A DNA stretch of 64,000 nucleotides from Clostridiaceae bacterium (GTDB lineage Bacteria; Bacillota_I; Bacilli_A; Erysipelotrichales; Coprobacillaceae), in NCBI GenBank assembly GCA_902363625.1, contig CABJAS010000003.1:280996-344995 (forward strand), in the 5' to 3' direction. The translations under genes and the position numbers were made by a program. This document shows, one piece after another, positions 52,353 through 58,545 of this stretch. The notes below the pieces were generated by a model that saw only the letters and a list, made by a program, of their open reading frames with translations, was not told where the DNA came from and searched no databases. Numbering within the stretch: position 1 is the stretch's first letter; the number at the start of each line of letters is the position of its first letter.

Positions 52353-53170
52353 TGAAGAAGCTTCATTACTTAAAAGTTATTGTAATATTATTACTGATCG
52401 CAGTGATAGGGGTAACCGCTTATTTAAGCTTTTATCGAACTCCTTATGCGATCAGTCTTTCTAAACACGAAGTCGTTCATACAGATTTACCGGAAGCTTT
52501 CAATAATTTTAAAGTAGGCTATTTTTCTGATTTGGATTTAAAAGATAATGATGATATTACACGACTTAAAAAAATAGTAGAAAAAATAAATGCACAGAAT
52601 TTTGATTTGGTTCTATTTGGCGGTGATATTTACGATGCGCAGATTATCAGCCAAGATGAAGTCAGTCAGCTTTTAAATCAGATTACAGCTAAATATGGAA
52701 AATTTGCCGTATTAGGTGAAAAAGATTACACAAGTGTCAATGATACCAAAAACATATTGCAGTTAGGTGGATTTGAGGTGCTGTCAAATGAGGCACGTTC
52801 TATTTACTACAATAACAGTTCAATTACTTTATTCGGTTTGGAATCGGCTGATAATTTAGGTACTCTAATTAATGCCAACAACAGCGGTAATTATAAAATT
52901 GCGTTAGTGCATCAACCTGATTTCTTTACAAATACGGTGGGCAAAGACATTGAATTACAGTTGTCAGGACATTCACATGGAGGCTATATCTATCTTCCGT
53001 TTTTAGGTCCTTTGATTACTGTTGATGGAGCAAAAGCATATAACCATGGTCGTTATGATGTTGGTGCTTCTACCTTGATCGTTTCTAACGGTCTGGGAAT
53101 GGAAAGCGGACAGTCAGCACGACTGTTCTGTACTCCTGATATCCTGCAAGTCACACTGAAAAATAAATAG
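52352..53170 (+). CDS. Membrane-anchored metallophosphoesterase-like protein with altered motifs
   Basis: One N-terminal membrane helix (7-27) is followed by a calcineurin-like domain of the YaeI type. GGDIYDA and LSGHSHGGYIYLPFLGP are recognisable. Two metal motifs are changed: the usual D-x-H appears as FSDLDL, and the usual GNHD as GEKDY. The enzyme may be inactive or use a different metal site. Its ATG overlaps the stop of the RNase J gene (TAATG). Confidence 0.85.
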   Translation: MKKLHYLKVIVILLLIAVIGVTAYLSFYRTPYAISLSKHEVVHTDLPEAFNNFKVGYFSDLDLKDNDDITRLKKIVEKINAQNFDLVLFGGDIYDAQIISQDEVSQLLNQITAKYGKFAVLGEKDYTSVNDTKNILQLGGFEVLSNEARSIYYNNSSITLFGLESADNLGTLINANNSGNYKIALVHQPDFFTNTVGKDIELQLSGHSHGGYIYLPFLGPLITVDGAKAYNHGRYDVGASTLIVSNGLGMESGQSARLFCTPDILQVTLKNK

Positions 53171-53200
53171 AGGAGCAAAATTTATTGCCCCTCTTTTTTT
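53169..53200. terminator. Bidirectional terminator between phosphoesterase and pflA genes
   Basis: AGAGGAGCAA and TTGCCCCTCT pair with one mismatch, then seven T on the plus strand. The right arm holds the pflA stop region, but the minus-strand U tract is weak (TTTATTT). Confidence 0.7.
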
Positions 53201-53943
53201 AATTCACTTTTACGGTCTTTATAACCTTTTAAAACAACCTTACGTGCCTGAATTGCTTCCGACTTATCCAATGCAGGAATACCTTCTAATGGATAATCCA
53301 TTCCTAAGCTTTTATATTTATTGATTCCCATTGTATGATAAGGCAGAATATCCAACGCCTTAACATTGTGGAACTGTCCAATATAGTATCCTAACTGATA
53401 AAGATAGTCATCGTTTTGTGTTATTGTCGGAACCACCACATGACGAATCCAGACTTCCTTGCTAGTCTCATCAAGATAAGCTAAAAAATCTAAGATGCGA
53501 TCATTTTTCTGTTGTGTCAGTTTGATATGCTCCTGAGGATCAATATGCTTTATATCTAACATCACCAGATCAGTCACAGCCATTAAACGATTCATCTTTG
53601 CCAATGCTTTTTCTTCTCTGGAGAAGGTTATTCCCGATGTATCTAAACAGGTATGAATTCCTTTTTCCTTGGCTTTAGCAAACAGCTCTGTAACAAAATC
53701 CATCTGCATCAACGGTTCTCCGCCAGTAACCGTTAAACCGCCTTCTTTATAAAAAGATTTATTTTCATCATAAGCCTCTAAAATTTCTTTCGTCGTCATT
53801 TTATTTCCGGTATTTAATTCCCAAGTATCCGGATTATGACAATACAAACAGCGCATTGGACAACCTTGAGTAAACACGACAAAGCGAATCCCCGGTCCGT
53901 CAACAGTACCAAATGATTCAGTTGAATGTATATATCCTTCCAT
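53182..53943 (-). CDS. pflA: Pyruvate formate-lyase activating enzyme
   Basis: A radical-SAM enzyme that makes the glycyl radical on PFL. It is 253 residues with CPMRCLYCHN holding the CxxxCxxC cluster (about 29-38), then LTVTGGEPLMQ near 74-84 and VMLDIKH. Here its target glycine lies on a separate 79-residue protein. It has its own promoter downstream of the pfl genes. Confidence 0.97.
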   Translation of the reverse strand: MEGYIHSTESFGTVDGPGIRFVVFTQGCPMRCLYCHNPDTWELNTGNKMTTKEILEAYDENKSFYKEGGLTVTGGEPLMQMDFVTELFAKAKEKGIHTCLDTSGITFSREEKALAKMNRLMAVTDLVMLDIKHIDPQEHIKLTQQKNDRILDFLAYLDETSKEVWIRHVVVPTITQNDDYLYQLGYYIGQFHNVKALDILPYHTMGINKYKSLGMDYPLEGIPALDKSEAIQARKVVLKGYKDRKSELKKEGQ

Positions 53944-53973
53944 TACGCGCCCTCCATTCTTATTTCACTATAC

Positions 53974-53984
53974 CCATTATAGCA
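53974..53984 (-). promoter_or_regulatory. Extended -10 promoter of pflA
   Basis: On the minus strand TGCTATAAT, a perfect extended -10, about 30 bases before the pflA start. The -35 region is only AT-rich. Confidence 0.5.
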
Positions 53985-53995
53985 TTATTTAATTT

Positions 53996-54020
53996 AAAAA
54001 GGGAGCTAAGCTCCCTTTTA
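53996..54020 (-). terminator. Terminator after the glycyl-radical subunit gene
   Basis: AAAAGGGAGCT and AGCTCCCTTTT form a long stem with almost no loop; T5 follows on the minus strand. Confidence 0.75.
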
Positions 54021-54021
54021 A

Positions 54022-54261
54022 TTACATTGAATCGTGGAAAGTACGTGCGATAACGTCATCTTGTTGTTCTTTTGTAAGTTTAACGAAGTTAACTGCATAT
54101 CCTGATACACGGATTGTTAATTGTGGATAGTTTTCAGGGTGAGCCTGAGCATCTAATAATGTTTCTTTAGTAAAAACATTAACGTTTAAATGATGTCCAC
54201 CTTTTTCAACATAACCATCTAATAAAGATACTAAATTATCGATTTGAGCTTGATTTGCCAT
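54022..54261 (-). CDS. Glycyl-radical subunit of pyruvate formate-lyase (GrcA-like)
   Basis: A 79-residue protein that equals the C-terminal end of a normal [21 protein letters not shown] (13-30), [15 protein letters not shown], and the radical loop [12 protein letters not shown] with Gly54. It differs from E. coli GrcA/YfiD in having no N-terminal extension. It comes third after pflB and a 68-residue gene, with AGGAGGGG before the ATG. Since the adjacent pflB lacks this domain, it is likely an obligatory subunit here and not just a repair spare. Confidence 0.9.
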
Positions 54262-54276
54262 AGTATTCCCCTCCTA

Positions 54277-54483
54277 TTAAAATTCGTCGTCTTCCTCTGT
54301 AAAGAACGTTGGAATCTGGCATGCTGACTGTACGCCGCATGAGTCCAAGCCTTTCTTTACCTCTATTTTATCAACATTGAATTCTTCGCTGTCATCATTG
54401 AACTGCACATTCATATGACCACCGCCATCCTCAACAAATTGATCTAACATTTTAATTAATTCTTCTACTTTTTTTTCGTTCAA
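54277..54483 (-). CDS. 68-residue protein related to the PFL linker, no glycyl-radical motif
   Basis: Lies between pflB and the glycyl-radical gene, starting with TTG after AAGGAAG. The first ~24 residues (KVEELIKMLDQFVEDGGGHM) resemble the start of the radical subunit ([20 protein letters not shown]). The rest is unrelated: acidic, with DSCGVQSACQIP carrying two cysteines and an acidic end. The RVSGYA loop is absent. Function unknown; it may dock in the same place on PflB as the radical subunit. Confidence 0.75.
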   Translation of the reverse strand: MNEKKVEELIKMLDQFVEDGGGHMNVQFNDDSEEFNVDKIEVKKGLDSCGVQSACQIPTFFTEEDDEF

Positions 54484-54500
54484 AAGAATCGCTTCCTTTT

Positions 54501-56558
54501 TTATTTATCTTCTAAATCAATATCAACATCCAAGTCACCAACAAATACTTGGTCATCTTTACCTAAAGCACCTGGAATGATTGAGAAAGTATTAGAAATA
54601 CCATCTTGTGCATCTTTAAATGGTAATTTTGCTACTGAAGCAAGTGAAGCAACAGCACCATGAGTATCTCTGCGATGCATTGGGTTAGCACCTGGAGCAA
54701 ATGGTTCCCCTTTCTTTCTACCATCTGGTGTACTTCCTGTTGCTTTACCATAAACAACATTAGAAGTAATAGTTAAGATAGATGTTGTAGGAACACTGTC
54801 ACGATAAGTATGATGAGATCTTACTTTATCCATGAATGTTTTTACTAGCCAAGTTGCAATTTCATCAGCTTTGTCATCATTGTTACCGTATTTAGGGAAG
54901 TCTCCTTCAGTTATGAAATCTGTTACGATACCATCTTCATCTCTGACACATTTAACTTTTGCATATTTAATTGCTGATAATGAGTCAGCTACTACTGAAA
55001 GACCGGCAATTCCTGTTGCGAAATAACGTTTAACATCTCTGTCATGTAATGCCATTTGAATTCTTTCATAGCAGTATTTATCATGCATATAGTGGATGAT
55101 ATTTAATGAGTTAACATAAACTCCAGCCAACCAGTCCATCATATCTTCATATTTAGATACTACATCGTTGAAATCTAAATATTCTCCTTCAACAGGTCTG
55201 AATTTAGGACCAACTTGTTTTTTAGAAACTTCATCGATACCACCGTTGATTGCATATAATAAACATTTAGCTAAGTTAGCACGAGCTCCGAAGAACTGCA
55301 TTTCTTTACCAACAACCATTGAAGATATACAGCATGCGATAGCATAGTCATCACCATGAGTCACTCTCATTAAGTCATCGTTTTCATATTGAATTGATGA
55401 TGATTTGATTGACATCTTAGCACAGTATGCTTTGAAGTTAGCAGGTAAGCGAGTTGACCATAAAACAGTTAAGTTTGGTTCCGGTGCTGCACCTAAGTTG
55501 TCTAATGTGTGTAAATATCTGAATGAAGTTCTAGTGACCATTGGACGTCCATCGATACCAACACCACCGATTGATTCAGTTACCCATTGTGGATCTCCTG
55601 AGAACAATGCATTGTAATCTGGAGTACGAGCGAATTTAATCAATCTTAATTTCATGATGAAATGATCTACTAATTCCTGTGCTTCTTCTTCAGTTAAGAC
55701 ACCATTTTTAATATCTCTTTCGATATAGATATCAATAAATGTTGAAGTTCTTCCTAAAGACATTGCAGCTCCGTTTTGTTCCTTAACTGATGCTAAGTAA
55801 CCAAAATATAACCATTGAATAGCTTCTTTAGCTGTTGTAGCTGGTTTTGAGATATCTAAACCATAGATTTTTCCTAATTCTTTCAATTCTCCTAAAGCTC
55901 TGATTTGTTCACTTAATTCTTCACGTAAACGAATGTTTTTACTATTCATACGTGCAACATGTGATGTAGCGAATTGTTCTTTTTTATCTTCAATTAAACG
56001 ATCTACTCCATATAATGCAACACGTCTGTAATCTCCGATAATACGTCCACGTCCGTAAGCATCAGGTAATCCAGTAATGATATGAGAAGATCTGCATGCT
56101 CTCATTTCTGGAGTATAAACATCGAATACACCTTGGTTATGTGTTTTTCTGTATTTTGTAAAAATATTTACAATTTCAGGATCTACTTCGTATCCATTAT
56201 CTGCACATGCTTGCTGTGCCATACGAATTCCACCAAAAGGCTGTAAAGATCTTTTAAATGGTTTTTCTGTTTGGAAACCAACAATCTTTTCCTTTGATTT
56301 ATCTAAATAACCTGCTTCATGTGATGTGATGGTAGATACTACTTTAGTATCCATATCTAAAACACCACCGGCATCTCTTTCCTTAGCAGTTAAATCCATA
56401 ACTTGATCCCATAATTCTAAAGTAGCTTTAGTAGGCCCGGCTAAGAATGATTCGTCTCCTGTGTAAGGTGTGTAGTTTAATTGGATGAAATCTCTTAAGT
56501 TGATTTCAGAAGTCCATTTACCTTCTACAAACCCTTCCCATGCATTTGTTAAACTCAT
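54501..56558 (-). CDS. pflB: Pyruvate formate-lyase catalytic core without glycyl-radical domain
   Basis: Splits pyruvate with CoA into acetyl-CoA and formate. It is 685 residues from the ATG at 56558 (AGGGGG upstream). The two active cysteines are Cys409-Cys410 in [20 protein letters not shown]. The N-terminal and barrel sequence is normal ([20 protein letters not shown]), ending [17 protein letters not shown] and an acidic tail. The ~75-residue C-terminal radical domain found in other PFLs is missing and is supplied by the gene at 54022; both together make the usual ~760 residues. Confidence 0.95.
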
Positions 56559-56599
56559 GTGTTTAAACCCCCTGTTTGATTTTTTATTTTTCCTAGTCA

Positions 56600-56628
56600 A
56601 TTATAGCACCGCCAAAATATGAATACAA
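56600..56628 (-). promoter_or_regulatory. pflB promoter
   Basis: On the minus strand TTGTAT (56623-56628), 17 bases, TATAAT (56600-56605) with an upstream TG, 42 bases before the start. No clear Rex or Fnr site is seen; the 230 bases upstream hold no gene. Confidence 0.75.
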
Positions 56629-56863
56629 CAAATTTATTACAATTTTAAAAAATTATTAGTATTTCATAAAAGTGTACTAGAAATGATAAATAAAACGCTG
56701 TAAAAGAAGATAATTAAAAGTGATCGCACTCTTAATGTATCAGATAATAATTCCTATTACCACTTATTTGCTTGATTATTTTTAATATCAAATTCTACTC
56801 TTTTCAGCATGTTAATTATATCACAAAAGACTTATATCGACAATTAAAAGCATTCAAAACTCT

Positions 56864-56889
56864 ATAAAAAAACTGCCTAGAATGGCAGT
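56864..56889 (-). terminator. Terminator after the EIIB-like gene
   Basis: On the minus strand ACTGCC and GGCAGT with a 6-base loop, then TTTTTTT. Confidence 0.85.
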
Positions 56890-56893
56890 ATAT

Positions 56894-57244
56894 TTAAACT
56901 TTCGCTTTCATTTCATTTTCAATTGCCTGAGAGGTTTTTCCAAAGATCATCGAAACTTTATTTTCATTTTGAACAATTCCGCTGGCACCTAGAGCTTTTA
57001 TTTTTTCTGCTTCGATTACTTTAGGTTCTTTAAGCTCAACTGTTACTTTTGACATTGAACTGCTGATCTCTTTAATATTGCCGCTGCCGCCAAGGGCTGA
57101 TAATAAATGCTCAATATCAACACCGGATTTAGCTAATACTTTCTGTTTTGGCTTCTTATTCTTTAAATAAAAACGAATTCCTAATAGAAGCACTGCAATC
57201 GCAATCACTCCTATAGCTATATATAAATAAAGTTCATTTCCCAT
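56894..57244 (-). CDS. Membrane-anchored PTS EIIB-like domain without the active cysteine
   Basis: One N-terminal membrane helix (6-26), then a domain (about 43-112) that resembles glucose-family EIIB: HLLSALGGSGNIKEIS, VTVELKEPKVIEAEKIKALG, and VSMIFGKTSQAIENEM. The phosphorylated cysteine expected in the D-x-C-x-T-R-L stretch is replaced (SSSMSKVTVEL), and the protein has no cysteine at all. It cannot carry out normal sugar phosphotransfer, so a sensing or structural role is more likely. Confidence 0.75.
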   Translation of the reverse strand: MGNELYLYIAIGVIAIAVLLLGIRFYLKNKKPKQKVLAKSGVDIEHLLSALGGSGNIKEISSSMSKVTVELKEPKVIEAEKIKALGASGIVQNENKVSMIFGKTSQAIENEMKAKV

Positions 57245-57322
57245 TTTCGCATATCCTTTCTTACGGTATTCTTTGTATTTTCTTCAATTTATAGTATACT
57301 ATAGTCTAGAGGTGAAGGAAAC

Positions 57323-57370
57323 ATGAAAATAGAGAATTTTGAGTTAAGAGGAAGAGATTCGTGGATGTAG
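57323..57370 (+). CDS. Possible 15-codon upstream frame overlapping the SEDS gene start
   Basis: ATG at 57323 follows GAGGTGAAGG at a good distance and reads MKIENFELRGRDSWM before a TAG at 57368-57370. It overlaps the GTG start of the next gene (57361). It could be a leader peptide that couples translation of the SEDS protein. No other evidence. Confidence 0.4.
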   Translation: MKIENFELRGRDSWM

Positions 57371-58545
57371 AAAAGAAGCAATATTTTCATATGCCGCTGC
57401 TAGTGATCATGATTATTGTTGCTATTATAAGCTGTATTGCGATCGCCTCCGCAAAGCCTCTCATTACCTATCCAAATCCTGGCGGGTATTGGTCAAAACA
57501 ATTACAATGGTACATTATTGGCTTTGTTGCCATGTATGCTGTATATAAATTTGGAAGTGACAGGATTTATTCTTGTATATGGATTATTTATTGGCTGTTG
57601 ATGATTTCACTGCTGTTATTAGCCCTCAAGCATCGTTTTGGGCTGCCGGTTCCCTTTGCTGAAGAAGTAAACGGGGCAACCAGCTGGTTTCAATTTCCCG
57701 GTGTTGGCGGAGTACAGCCAAGTGAATTTATGAAGATGGCAATCATTATCGCATTATCTAAGGTTGTTCAAGAACACAATGAACTTTACACACTGCACAC
57801 TTTTGAAACAGATTGTAAACTCTTAGCTAAAGTAGCTGCGGTATCCTTGCCGCCATGCCTGCTGATTTATCTGCAAAACGATGCCGGGGTAACGATGATC
57901 ATTGCAGTATCTGTAATTTTCTTACTATTTGCCAGTGGTCTGCAAATGCGTTGGTTTATCGTTGGAGTAAGTATTCTCCTAGTCGGAATATTAGTGATCG
58001 TTTATATCTTCTTATATAATCAGGAATTGTTTAAATCAATCTTCAGCGGACATAAAGCCGGGCGTTTCTATGGCTGGCTGGATCCCGAAGGTACCTATGG
58101 ACAAGAAGGCTACCAGCTCTTCAATGCGCTGTTATCCTATGGAACCGCCTCCGTTTTCGGACATGGTTTTCAATCCGTCGTTATGAACTTCCCTGAAGCA
58201 CATACAGACTTTATTTTTGCTGTAATATGTCAAGGTGGCGGGCTGGTTGCCGGGGTTACCGTACTAACCGCAATCGTTTCTTTAGACATTACCATTCTAA
58301 AAATCGGGATTCAAGCTGATGAAAAAGGGCGCTGTCTAACAACCGGTTTATTTGGTCTACTGTTTATACAGCAGATCTGGAATATCTTTATGATTACCGG
58401 TTTACTGCCAATCACAGGAATCACGCTTCCGTTTATTTCTTATGGCGGATCTTCGCTTTTATCCTATATGCTGATTATCGGAATGATCTTTGATATTGAA
58501 AAGCAGAATAGAATTAAACACAGTAAGCTTCATAATTATGAATAA
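57361..58545 (+). CDS. SEDS family protein (FtsW/RodA/SpoVE-like)
   Basis: A 394-residue peptidoglycan glycosyltransferase-type membrane protein with about ten helices. Visible family parts: GATSWFQFPGVGGVQPSEFMKMAII (read as W-F-x-x-P-G, then QPSEFMK), FGHGFQSVVMNFPEAHTDFIF-like region with PEAHTDF, and LPFISYGGSSLLSYM near the end. The start is likely GTG at 57361 with AGAGGAAG upstream. FtsW or RodA cannot be told apart by eye; there is no adjacent PBP gene. Confidence 0.9.
   Translation: MDVEKKQYFHMPLLVIMIIVAIISCIAIASAKPLITYPNPGGYWSKQLQWYIIGFVAMYAVYKFGSDRIYSCIWIIYWLLMISLLLLALKHRFGLPVPFAEEVNGATSWFQFPGVGGVQPSEFMKMAIIIALSKVVQEHNELYTLHTFETDCKLLAKVAAVSLPPCLLIYLQNDAGVTMIIAVSVIFLLFASGLQMRWFIVGVSILLVGILVIVYIFLYNQELFKSIFSGHKAGRFYGWLDPEGTYGQEGYQLFNALLSYGTASVFGHGFQSVVMNFPEAHTDFIFAVICQGGGLVAGVTVLTAIVSLDITILKIGIQADEKGRCLTTGLFGLLFIQQIWNIFMITGLLPITGITLPFISYGGSSLLSYMLIIGMIFDIEKQNRIKHSKLHNYE

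Follow-up and report, generated by a model that had tools for sequence, protein, structure and literature searches.

Gene organization of a divided pyruvate formate-lyase

The window, by which we mean the whole 64 kb stretch of DNA that was analysed, carries a pyruvate formate-lyase (PFL) locus in which a short ORF lies between the gene for a truncated PFL core and that for a free glycyl-radical domain. The features are as follows.

53182..53943, minus strand: pflA, PFL-activating radical-SAM enzyme, 253 aa (TIGR02493, 290.5 bits, cut-off 231.75)
53997..54019, minus strand: terminator-like hairpin, core GGGAGC-TTA-GCTCCC with a T5 run, fold about -14 kcal/mol
54022..54261, minus strand: GrcA3, free glycyl-radical domain, 79 aa, RVSGYA with radical glycine G54 (NF038360)
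54277..54483, minus strand: middle ORF, 68 aa, TTG start with AAGGAAG upstream, unnamed family
54501..56558, minus strand: pflB core, PFL without glycyl-radical domain, 685 aa, ATG start (TIGR01255)

The core, the middle ORF and GrcA3 are separated by gaps of 17 and 15 nt, and each start is preceded by a Shine-Dalgarno-like sequence, that of GrcA3 being a strong one (AGGAGGGG). For pflA, a TGCTATAAT element whose end lies 32 nt upstream was picked out by eye. The hairpin lies immediately 3′ of the GrcA3 stop codon and is absent from the output of the consensus terminator scan, which returned 4 terminator-like sites vs 2.3 expected by chance. Given the short gaps and the hairpin after GrcA3, the three ORFs look like a single transcript ended by the hairpin, with pflA behind. 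We claim no promoter, as the promoter scan yielded 15 sites vs 18.2 expected by chance; no Rfam family reached threshold within 53000-57400, and tblastn (E <= 1e-3) revealed no second copy of the core, GrcA3, the middle ORF or PflA in the 64 kb. Upstream of pflB, at 56894-57244, is a 116-aa ORF whose N-terminus is hydrophobic; it contains a PTS EIIB-like domain, a weak one, as Pfam is below cut-off and TIGR02002 gives 2e-11 yet falls far under its own cut-off.

An earlier note on this DNA had claimed that pflB ends before the RVSGYA radical loop, that the loop sits on a 79-residue gene two genes downstream, and that both pieces together have the length of a normal PFL; each of these observations holds. 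The C-terminus of the 685-aa frame is a short acidic tail without Cys and without the loop, the RVSGY loop with its radical glycine is carried instead by the 79-aa gene, and a single 68-aa ORF lies between the two. The core aligns with residues 7-681 of E. coli PflB (PDB 1h16) and the 79-mer with residues 682-759, the GrcA3 alignment beginning at its own residue 7. Similarly, the core matches TIGR01255 with 1114.4 bits (cut-off 994.2) over only model positions 1-670 of 744, the 79-mer spans positions 663-744, and the Pfam Gly_radical model is divided, with positions 1-51 on the core and 50-106 on the 79-mer. The latter is a member of the NCBIfam family GrcA3 (NF038360, 167.8 bits, cut-off 158), which NCBI labels 'autonomous glycyl radical cofactor'.

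The catalytic Cys pair is retained in the core as C409/C410, equivalent to C418/C419 of E. coli, and is invariant among 32 aligned cores (28 split, 4 whole), over which the mean column identity is 71%. A fold search with a structure model of the core ranked E. coli PFL first. The mean pLDDT of this model is 70.9, with 396-424, 594-635 and 651-685 among the stretches below 50; the model was built on a shallow alignment (32 rows), and we therefore draw no conclusion from its low-pLDDT stretches. In what it retains, namely the 7-681 core, the Cys pair and predicted activation by an adjacent PflA-type radical SAM enzyme, the protein resembles E. coli PflB. It differs in that G734, the radical glycine of E. 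coli PflB, is on the same chain, whereas here the chain stops at about residue 681. The core, which holds the active site, lacks the last barrel strand and the glycine loop, and GrcA3 is the missing C-terminal domain, encoded as a separate subunit.

Recurrence of the split and the partnership of core and GrcA3

The nearest genome found (G026; genomes and loci carry our own G and L numbers) encodes these three ORFs as well, with 94% DNA identity over 3.4 kb. It has a single truncated core, a single GrcA3 and a single PFL2-like enzyme, and no whole PFL. A 97%-identical middle ORF is recorded under the name Beduini massiliensis. The arrangement that the earlier note had suggested looking for in relatives was indeed found: when the core was used to scan species genomes and the best 80 loci were kept, 74 were split, that is, had a truncated core with GrcA3 within 2.5 kb, four encoded a whole PFL (L073, L077, L078, L079) and two were ended by contig edges. 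The titles among these 80 loci include Clostridia, Erysipelotrichaceae, Ruminococcus, Lachnospiraceae, Olsenella, Collinsella and Gastranaerophilales, and a whole PFL was found in none of 20 genomes chosen for a split locus. The split PFL thus recurs in many related bacteria and is not peculiar to this genome.

That the pieces adjoin and complement each other might suggest one gene broken in two, by sequencing error or as a pseudogene. However, G026, which is 94% identical, and 74 other loci show the identical break, the pieces are separated by a further conserved ORF, and GrcA3 has a strong ribosome site of its own, so that the sequencing error raised in the earlier note as a possible refutation is ruled out and this explanation as a whole is extremely improbable. 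It is also highly improbable that the pieces are joined during or after translation, by read-through, frameshift or ligation, into a whole PFL: core and GrcA3 do share a frame in 20 of the 74 loci, but these 20 have 1 to 10 intervening stop codons, the frames differ in the other 54, and GrcA3 can sit elsewhere in the genome. Fusion by read-through or frameshift was accordingly rejected on the frame and stop-codon counts in the 74 loci.

Whole and truncated PFLs were then counted in samples from four families (of G001, G009, G002 and G006) and two phyla (of G001 and G009). Matches in the phylum samples were taken to E 1e-20, and a match that covered roughly positions 660-744 within a short frame was taken as a free GrcA3.

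Family of G001, 43 genomes: 23 whole, 18 truncated, 1 without, and G024, which has GrcA3 and the middle ORF at a contig end
Family of G009, 60 genomes: 24 whole, 21 truncated, the remainder fragmentary or without
Family of G002, 41 genomes: 18 whole, 7 truncated
Family of G006, 41 genomes: 0 whole, 39 truncated, 2 without
Phylum of G001, 110 genomes: 12 whole, 16 truncated (2 and 1 of these, respectively, counted before)
Phylum of G009, 109 genomes: 32 whole, 1 truncated (the truncated one counted before)

In the non-redundant total of the six samples, 107 genomes have a whole PFL, 100 have a truncated core and none has both, and a free GrcA3 is present in all 100 truncated-core genomes and in none of the 107 whole-PFL genomes. 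Six of the 100 (G001, G002, G006, G007, G009, G013) were reached via their split locus; the other 94 were not. These counts leave out the whole PFLs of G095, G241, G256 and G333, which are fragmented or broken in frame, the partial cores of G106 and G144, where GrcA3 is lacking, and a fragment of 49 bits in G099 with no SGYA in its sequence. They include as whole the imperfect PFLs of G059 (model positions 1-724), G154 and G269 (both with in-frame stops), and as truncated the fragmentary cores of G025, G028, G083, G103, G182 and G190. In G028, G241 and G256 the core or whole PFL extends over two overlapping frames, i.e. a frameshift or assembly error.

This strict co-occurrence of core and GrcA3, with no genome that has a whole PFL too, indicates that GrcA3 is very probably an obligatory PFL subunit and not a spare part. 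The counts thereby support the claim of the earlier note that the radical glycine would come from the free protein alone. Of the two-part PFL that it proposed, the pairing of core and GrcA3 stands, but a conserved third component, the 68-aa ORF, had been passed over. Furthermore, GrcA3 lies apart from the core in three truncated-core genomes, G222 (about 100 kb away), G273 (about 470 kb away) and G296, and its retention at a distance argues for action in trans.

We also weighed the reading that GrcA3 is a mere repair spare, with a whole PFL at work elsewhere and the truncated core a relic. It would agree with the NCBI name of the 79-mer and with the way in which E. coli GrcA functions, four split genomes (G044, G102, G092, G103) do have a second GrcA3 elsewhere, and our search for whole PFLs covered relatives rather than the window's own genome. 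However, a whole TIGR01255-type PFL is found in none of the 100 truncated-core genomes, G026 included, and the core, at 71% mean column identity over 32 rows, shows no decay, which together make a mere spare highly improbable. E. coli YfiD coexists with a whole PflB, whereas GrcA3 occurs only with truncated cores in these samples; the 79-mer fits NF038360, a family whose name implies a spare, yet here it is apparently the only radical subunit. The second copies in the four split genomes may be true spares on top of the obligatory subunit. They lie at L110, L111, L112 and L113, and the L113 copy follows what looks by eye like a Crp/Fnr-type regulator gene.

Some further arrangements were encountered in this search. 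At G010:C9:57517-58850 an extra partial core (model positions 442-666) with its own GrcA3 is present besides the split PFL. A split PFL was also seen in nine small TGA-rich, Mollicutes-like genomes (G222, G273, G233, G240, G257, G277, G281, G296, G301; L162-L173), of which three do not have GrcA3 beside the core and eight have no two-Cys tail.

The middle ORF and an exchangeable cysteine module

Eleven close relatives of the middle ORF were found in addition to the ORF itself, and a 34-member alignment of it retrieved 985 proteins at E <= 0.001; among the 120 of these that were listed, every given name is 'hypothetical protein' and a Pfam domain is shown for none. D14, G22, H23, C55 and P58 are invariant over the 34 rows, and the acidic tail contains a C49-x5-C55-x2-P58 motif. 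Homology to the helix and strand at the start of GrcA3 extends over the first ~30 residues (hhalign probability 95.3, E 2e-8), whereas no glycine loop is present; the profile also weakly touches the helix-strand region of some whole PFLs. Its dN/dS is 0.03 between the window and G026, and 0.03-0.14 in 8 of 22 printed pairs, those with unsaturated dS. A structure model was of low confidence (pLDDT 58.8), and a search for PDB relatives gave six chains at E <= 10, the best at 0.026 (calreticulin), with no glycyl radical enzyme subunit among them.

In three of the four families the middle ORF was found with split cores. All 19 GrcA3-bearing genomes of the family of G001 have it, and none of the 23 with a whole PFL does; in that of G009 it is present in 15 of 21 truncated-core genomes (two of them with shortened ORFs) and 0 of 24 with a whole PFL, plus G068, in which no PFL was found; and in that of G002, in 6 of 7 split and 0 of 18 whole-PFL genomes. 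It is found in none of the 39 truncated-core genomes of the family of G006, nor in any of the 65 whole-PFL genomes searched for it. The shortened ORFs, in G074 and G087, end after the first Cys pair; those at L115 and L116 terminate in GCTTCSQ and GCTDCAK. In G064 the middle ORF is on a different contig from the core, among unrelated genes, which indicates that it too can be encoded apart. Homologues away from PFL genes were observed at G064:C64:103694-103885 and G068:C13:12154-12345 (L106, L108).

Among the 74 split loci, 43 have a middle ORF together with a Cys-free core tail (three of these ORFs, at L019, L023 and L066, having been assigned by eye), 30 lack the middle ORF and carry two or three Cys in the core tail, and L072 (Collinsella) is the sole locus with neither; a middle ORF and a Cys-rich core tail never occur together. 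Some of the Cys tails, for example CSNGACASPTLFEGLD, are much like the C-terminus of the middle ORF, and others consist of just CC or CxC. A Cys tail is present in all seven ORF-less split genomes that the G009 and G002 families contain, G013 (L048) and G145 among them. In the core tree (100 rows, FastTree, local supports only), the starred branches carry at least three changes of the ORF label and at least four of the tail label.

Across the 101 GrcA3-bearing genomes, 40 have a middle ORF, 39 others have a core tail with at least two Cys, and 22 have neither; in these counts the ORF was sought in fetched stretches rather than genome-wide for the 15 genomes added by the G001 phylum sample, and core-tail Cys were read for some of the 40 ORF-bearing genomes in the family and phylum samples. 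Eleven of the 22 belong to the family of G006 (ten sharing one short tail, plus G187), and the other 11 come from the sample of the G001 phylum, where eight have Mollicutes-like cores rich in TGA. The proposition that every split PFL has a Cys module is thus wrong, failing in Collinsella-family, Mollicutes-like and other Bacillota genomes. Since 22 of 101 genomes show neither module, and a whole family (39 genomes) is without the ORF, neither can be needed for catalysis as such. To judge from sequence, then, the middle ORF is an accessory part of the split PFL, Mollicutes-like and some Collinsella-family split PFLs having neither ORF nor Cys tail.

The same tree bears on the order of events. 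The four whole, Lachnospiraceae-type PFLs (L073, L077, L078, L079) form one group (support 99) inside a fork of 45 rows (support 99) whose other members are split cores; they have a GrcA3-like C-terminus directly after the core and no Cys module. Their nesting among split cores, together with this C-terminus, suggests that they are re-fused PFLs.

A proposed mechanism for the split enzyme

We consider it highly likely that the locus encodes a naturally split PFL, made of core, GrcA3 and an accessory middle ORF, that works in the following way. GrcA3 would dock on the core, its strand completing the barrel; PflA would install the radical on G54 of GrcA3, and the radical would then move to C409/C410 of the core. 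Upon attack by oxygen the 79-aa subunit would be replaced and the core kept and re-used. The middle protein would most likely dock on the core via its helix-strand half and offer the enzyme a pair of thiols with a redox or metal-binding role, and this is the least certain step.

As to what the thiol pair might do, one tentative version, which we hold as possible but not probable, is a three-part PFL in which the core would be long-lived, GrcA3 would be disposable, and a 'pseudo-radical' subunit without the glycine would dock by that same helix and strand and, with a flexible dithiol tail, re-reduce or protect the core Cys pair after oxygen attack. The tail of the middle protein would then be likened to that of class I ribonucleotide reductase, in which a swinging Cys-pair tail re-reduces the active site. 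Dithiol servicing would be needed only by a core that survives oxygen, and this would explain why the middle ORF accompanies split cores and is found in 0 of 65 whole-PFL genomes.

Two other roles for the middle ORF, each of which strikes us as unlikely, are the main rivals. It could be a placeholder, its strand occupying the barrel position in the core ahead of the arrival of GrcA3, or doing so in one half of a dimer that holds one radical. Just the helix-strand half of the ORF is homologous to GrcA3 and the glycine loop is absent, as a placeholder would predict, and Kammel et al. (PMC12338860) state that half-site radical content is reported for E. coli PFL in vitro; the same paper, however, argues against half-site reactivity in vivo. 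Moreover, 30 of the 74 split loci have a Cys tail without the helix-strand part, which marks the Cys motif rather than a plug as the recurring element, and the middle-ORF model that a plug would call upon is of low confidence (pLDDT 58.8). The second role is that of a metal or Fe-S site. Small metal or Fe-S subunits, such as the HPD small subunit and BSS beta and gamma, are found in other glycyl radical enzymes, and the Cys motif might bind a metal or cluster as they do. The usual two to three Cys per module and the occurrence of further subunits in other glycyl radical enzymes (PDB title 'Benzylsuccinate synthase alpha-beta-gamma complex') are consistent with such a site, but the Cys spacing varies widely (CC, CxC, CxxC, C-x4-C, C-x5-C, C-x6-C), no PDB chain resembles the middle ORF, and the search for PDB relatives at E <= 10 matched no solved HPD or BSS small Fe-S subunit.

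The core-GrcA3 part of our proposal has a close parallel in E. coli, where GrcA/YfiD (6owr; TIGR04365), like GrcA3, is a free glycyl radical domain that gives strand, loop and C-terminal helix in trans. YfiD carries a disordered N-terminus of 60 residues (Andorfer et al. 2021, PMC8683613), whereas GrcA3 is 79 aa in all and starts at the helix. The same paper states that residues 690-695 of E. coli PFL are protease-sensitive, near which the natural split, at residue ~681, falls. It further states that E. coli PFL cut after residue 695 can be activated with YfiD and has activity equal to wild type, and that its activation is 32-fold lower and YfiD binding undetectable. Kammel et al. 2025 (PMC12338860) list intermediate formate in vivo for a PflB G734A strain with GrcA, and none without GrcA. 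The truncation and G734A results indicate that radical supply in trans works and that docking is the difficulty, and the weak activation without detectable YfiD binding implies that the natural pair must dock better. A 2017 paper (PMC5476646) mentions a mycoplasma PFL with an 'autonomous glycyl radical cofactor', termed a replacement part.

In the open-licence literature, a scope that mostly excludes subscription papers, our searches gave no paper about GrcA3 or about PFLs split in nature, and no description of a third component or of its cis/trans exchange. The closest solved chains to the core are PDB 38la and 38lb, both named 'Formate acetyltransferase'. Neither is among the 34 sequences matched by a GrcA3 query; 38la has a C-terminus (...LGKED) like that of natural tail-less split cores; and over the first ~200 residues, compared with the cores of the surveyed loci (window excluded), 38lb is nearest to split cores L035/L055 and 38la to L004. 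Both are absent from the best 50 of 142 listed fold-search matches (library end 2026-04-08) and were probably released after that date. By sequence, 38la and 38lb look like solved split cores, and, closest to our core and without a GrcA3 match as they are, they suggest that another group seems to have solved such cores.

PFL occupies a central place in gut fermentation and is a textbook example of an oxygen-sensitive enzyme. Should GrcA3 prove obligatory to the PFL of many gut Clostridia, Erysipelotrichia, Coriobacteria and Gastranaerophilales, numerous proteins annotated as 'autonomous' cofactors would be mis-described. Recovery from oxygen in these anaerobes could, if the proposal is true, cost 79 residues and not about 760, and the loading of a free radical domain onto a PFL core would be open to study in a system optimised by evolution. 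The middle ORF, for which the only name seen is 'hypothetical protein', would be a testable third component of this enzyme.
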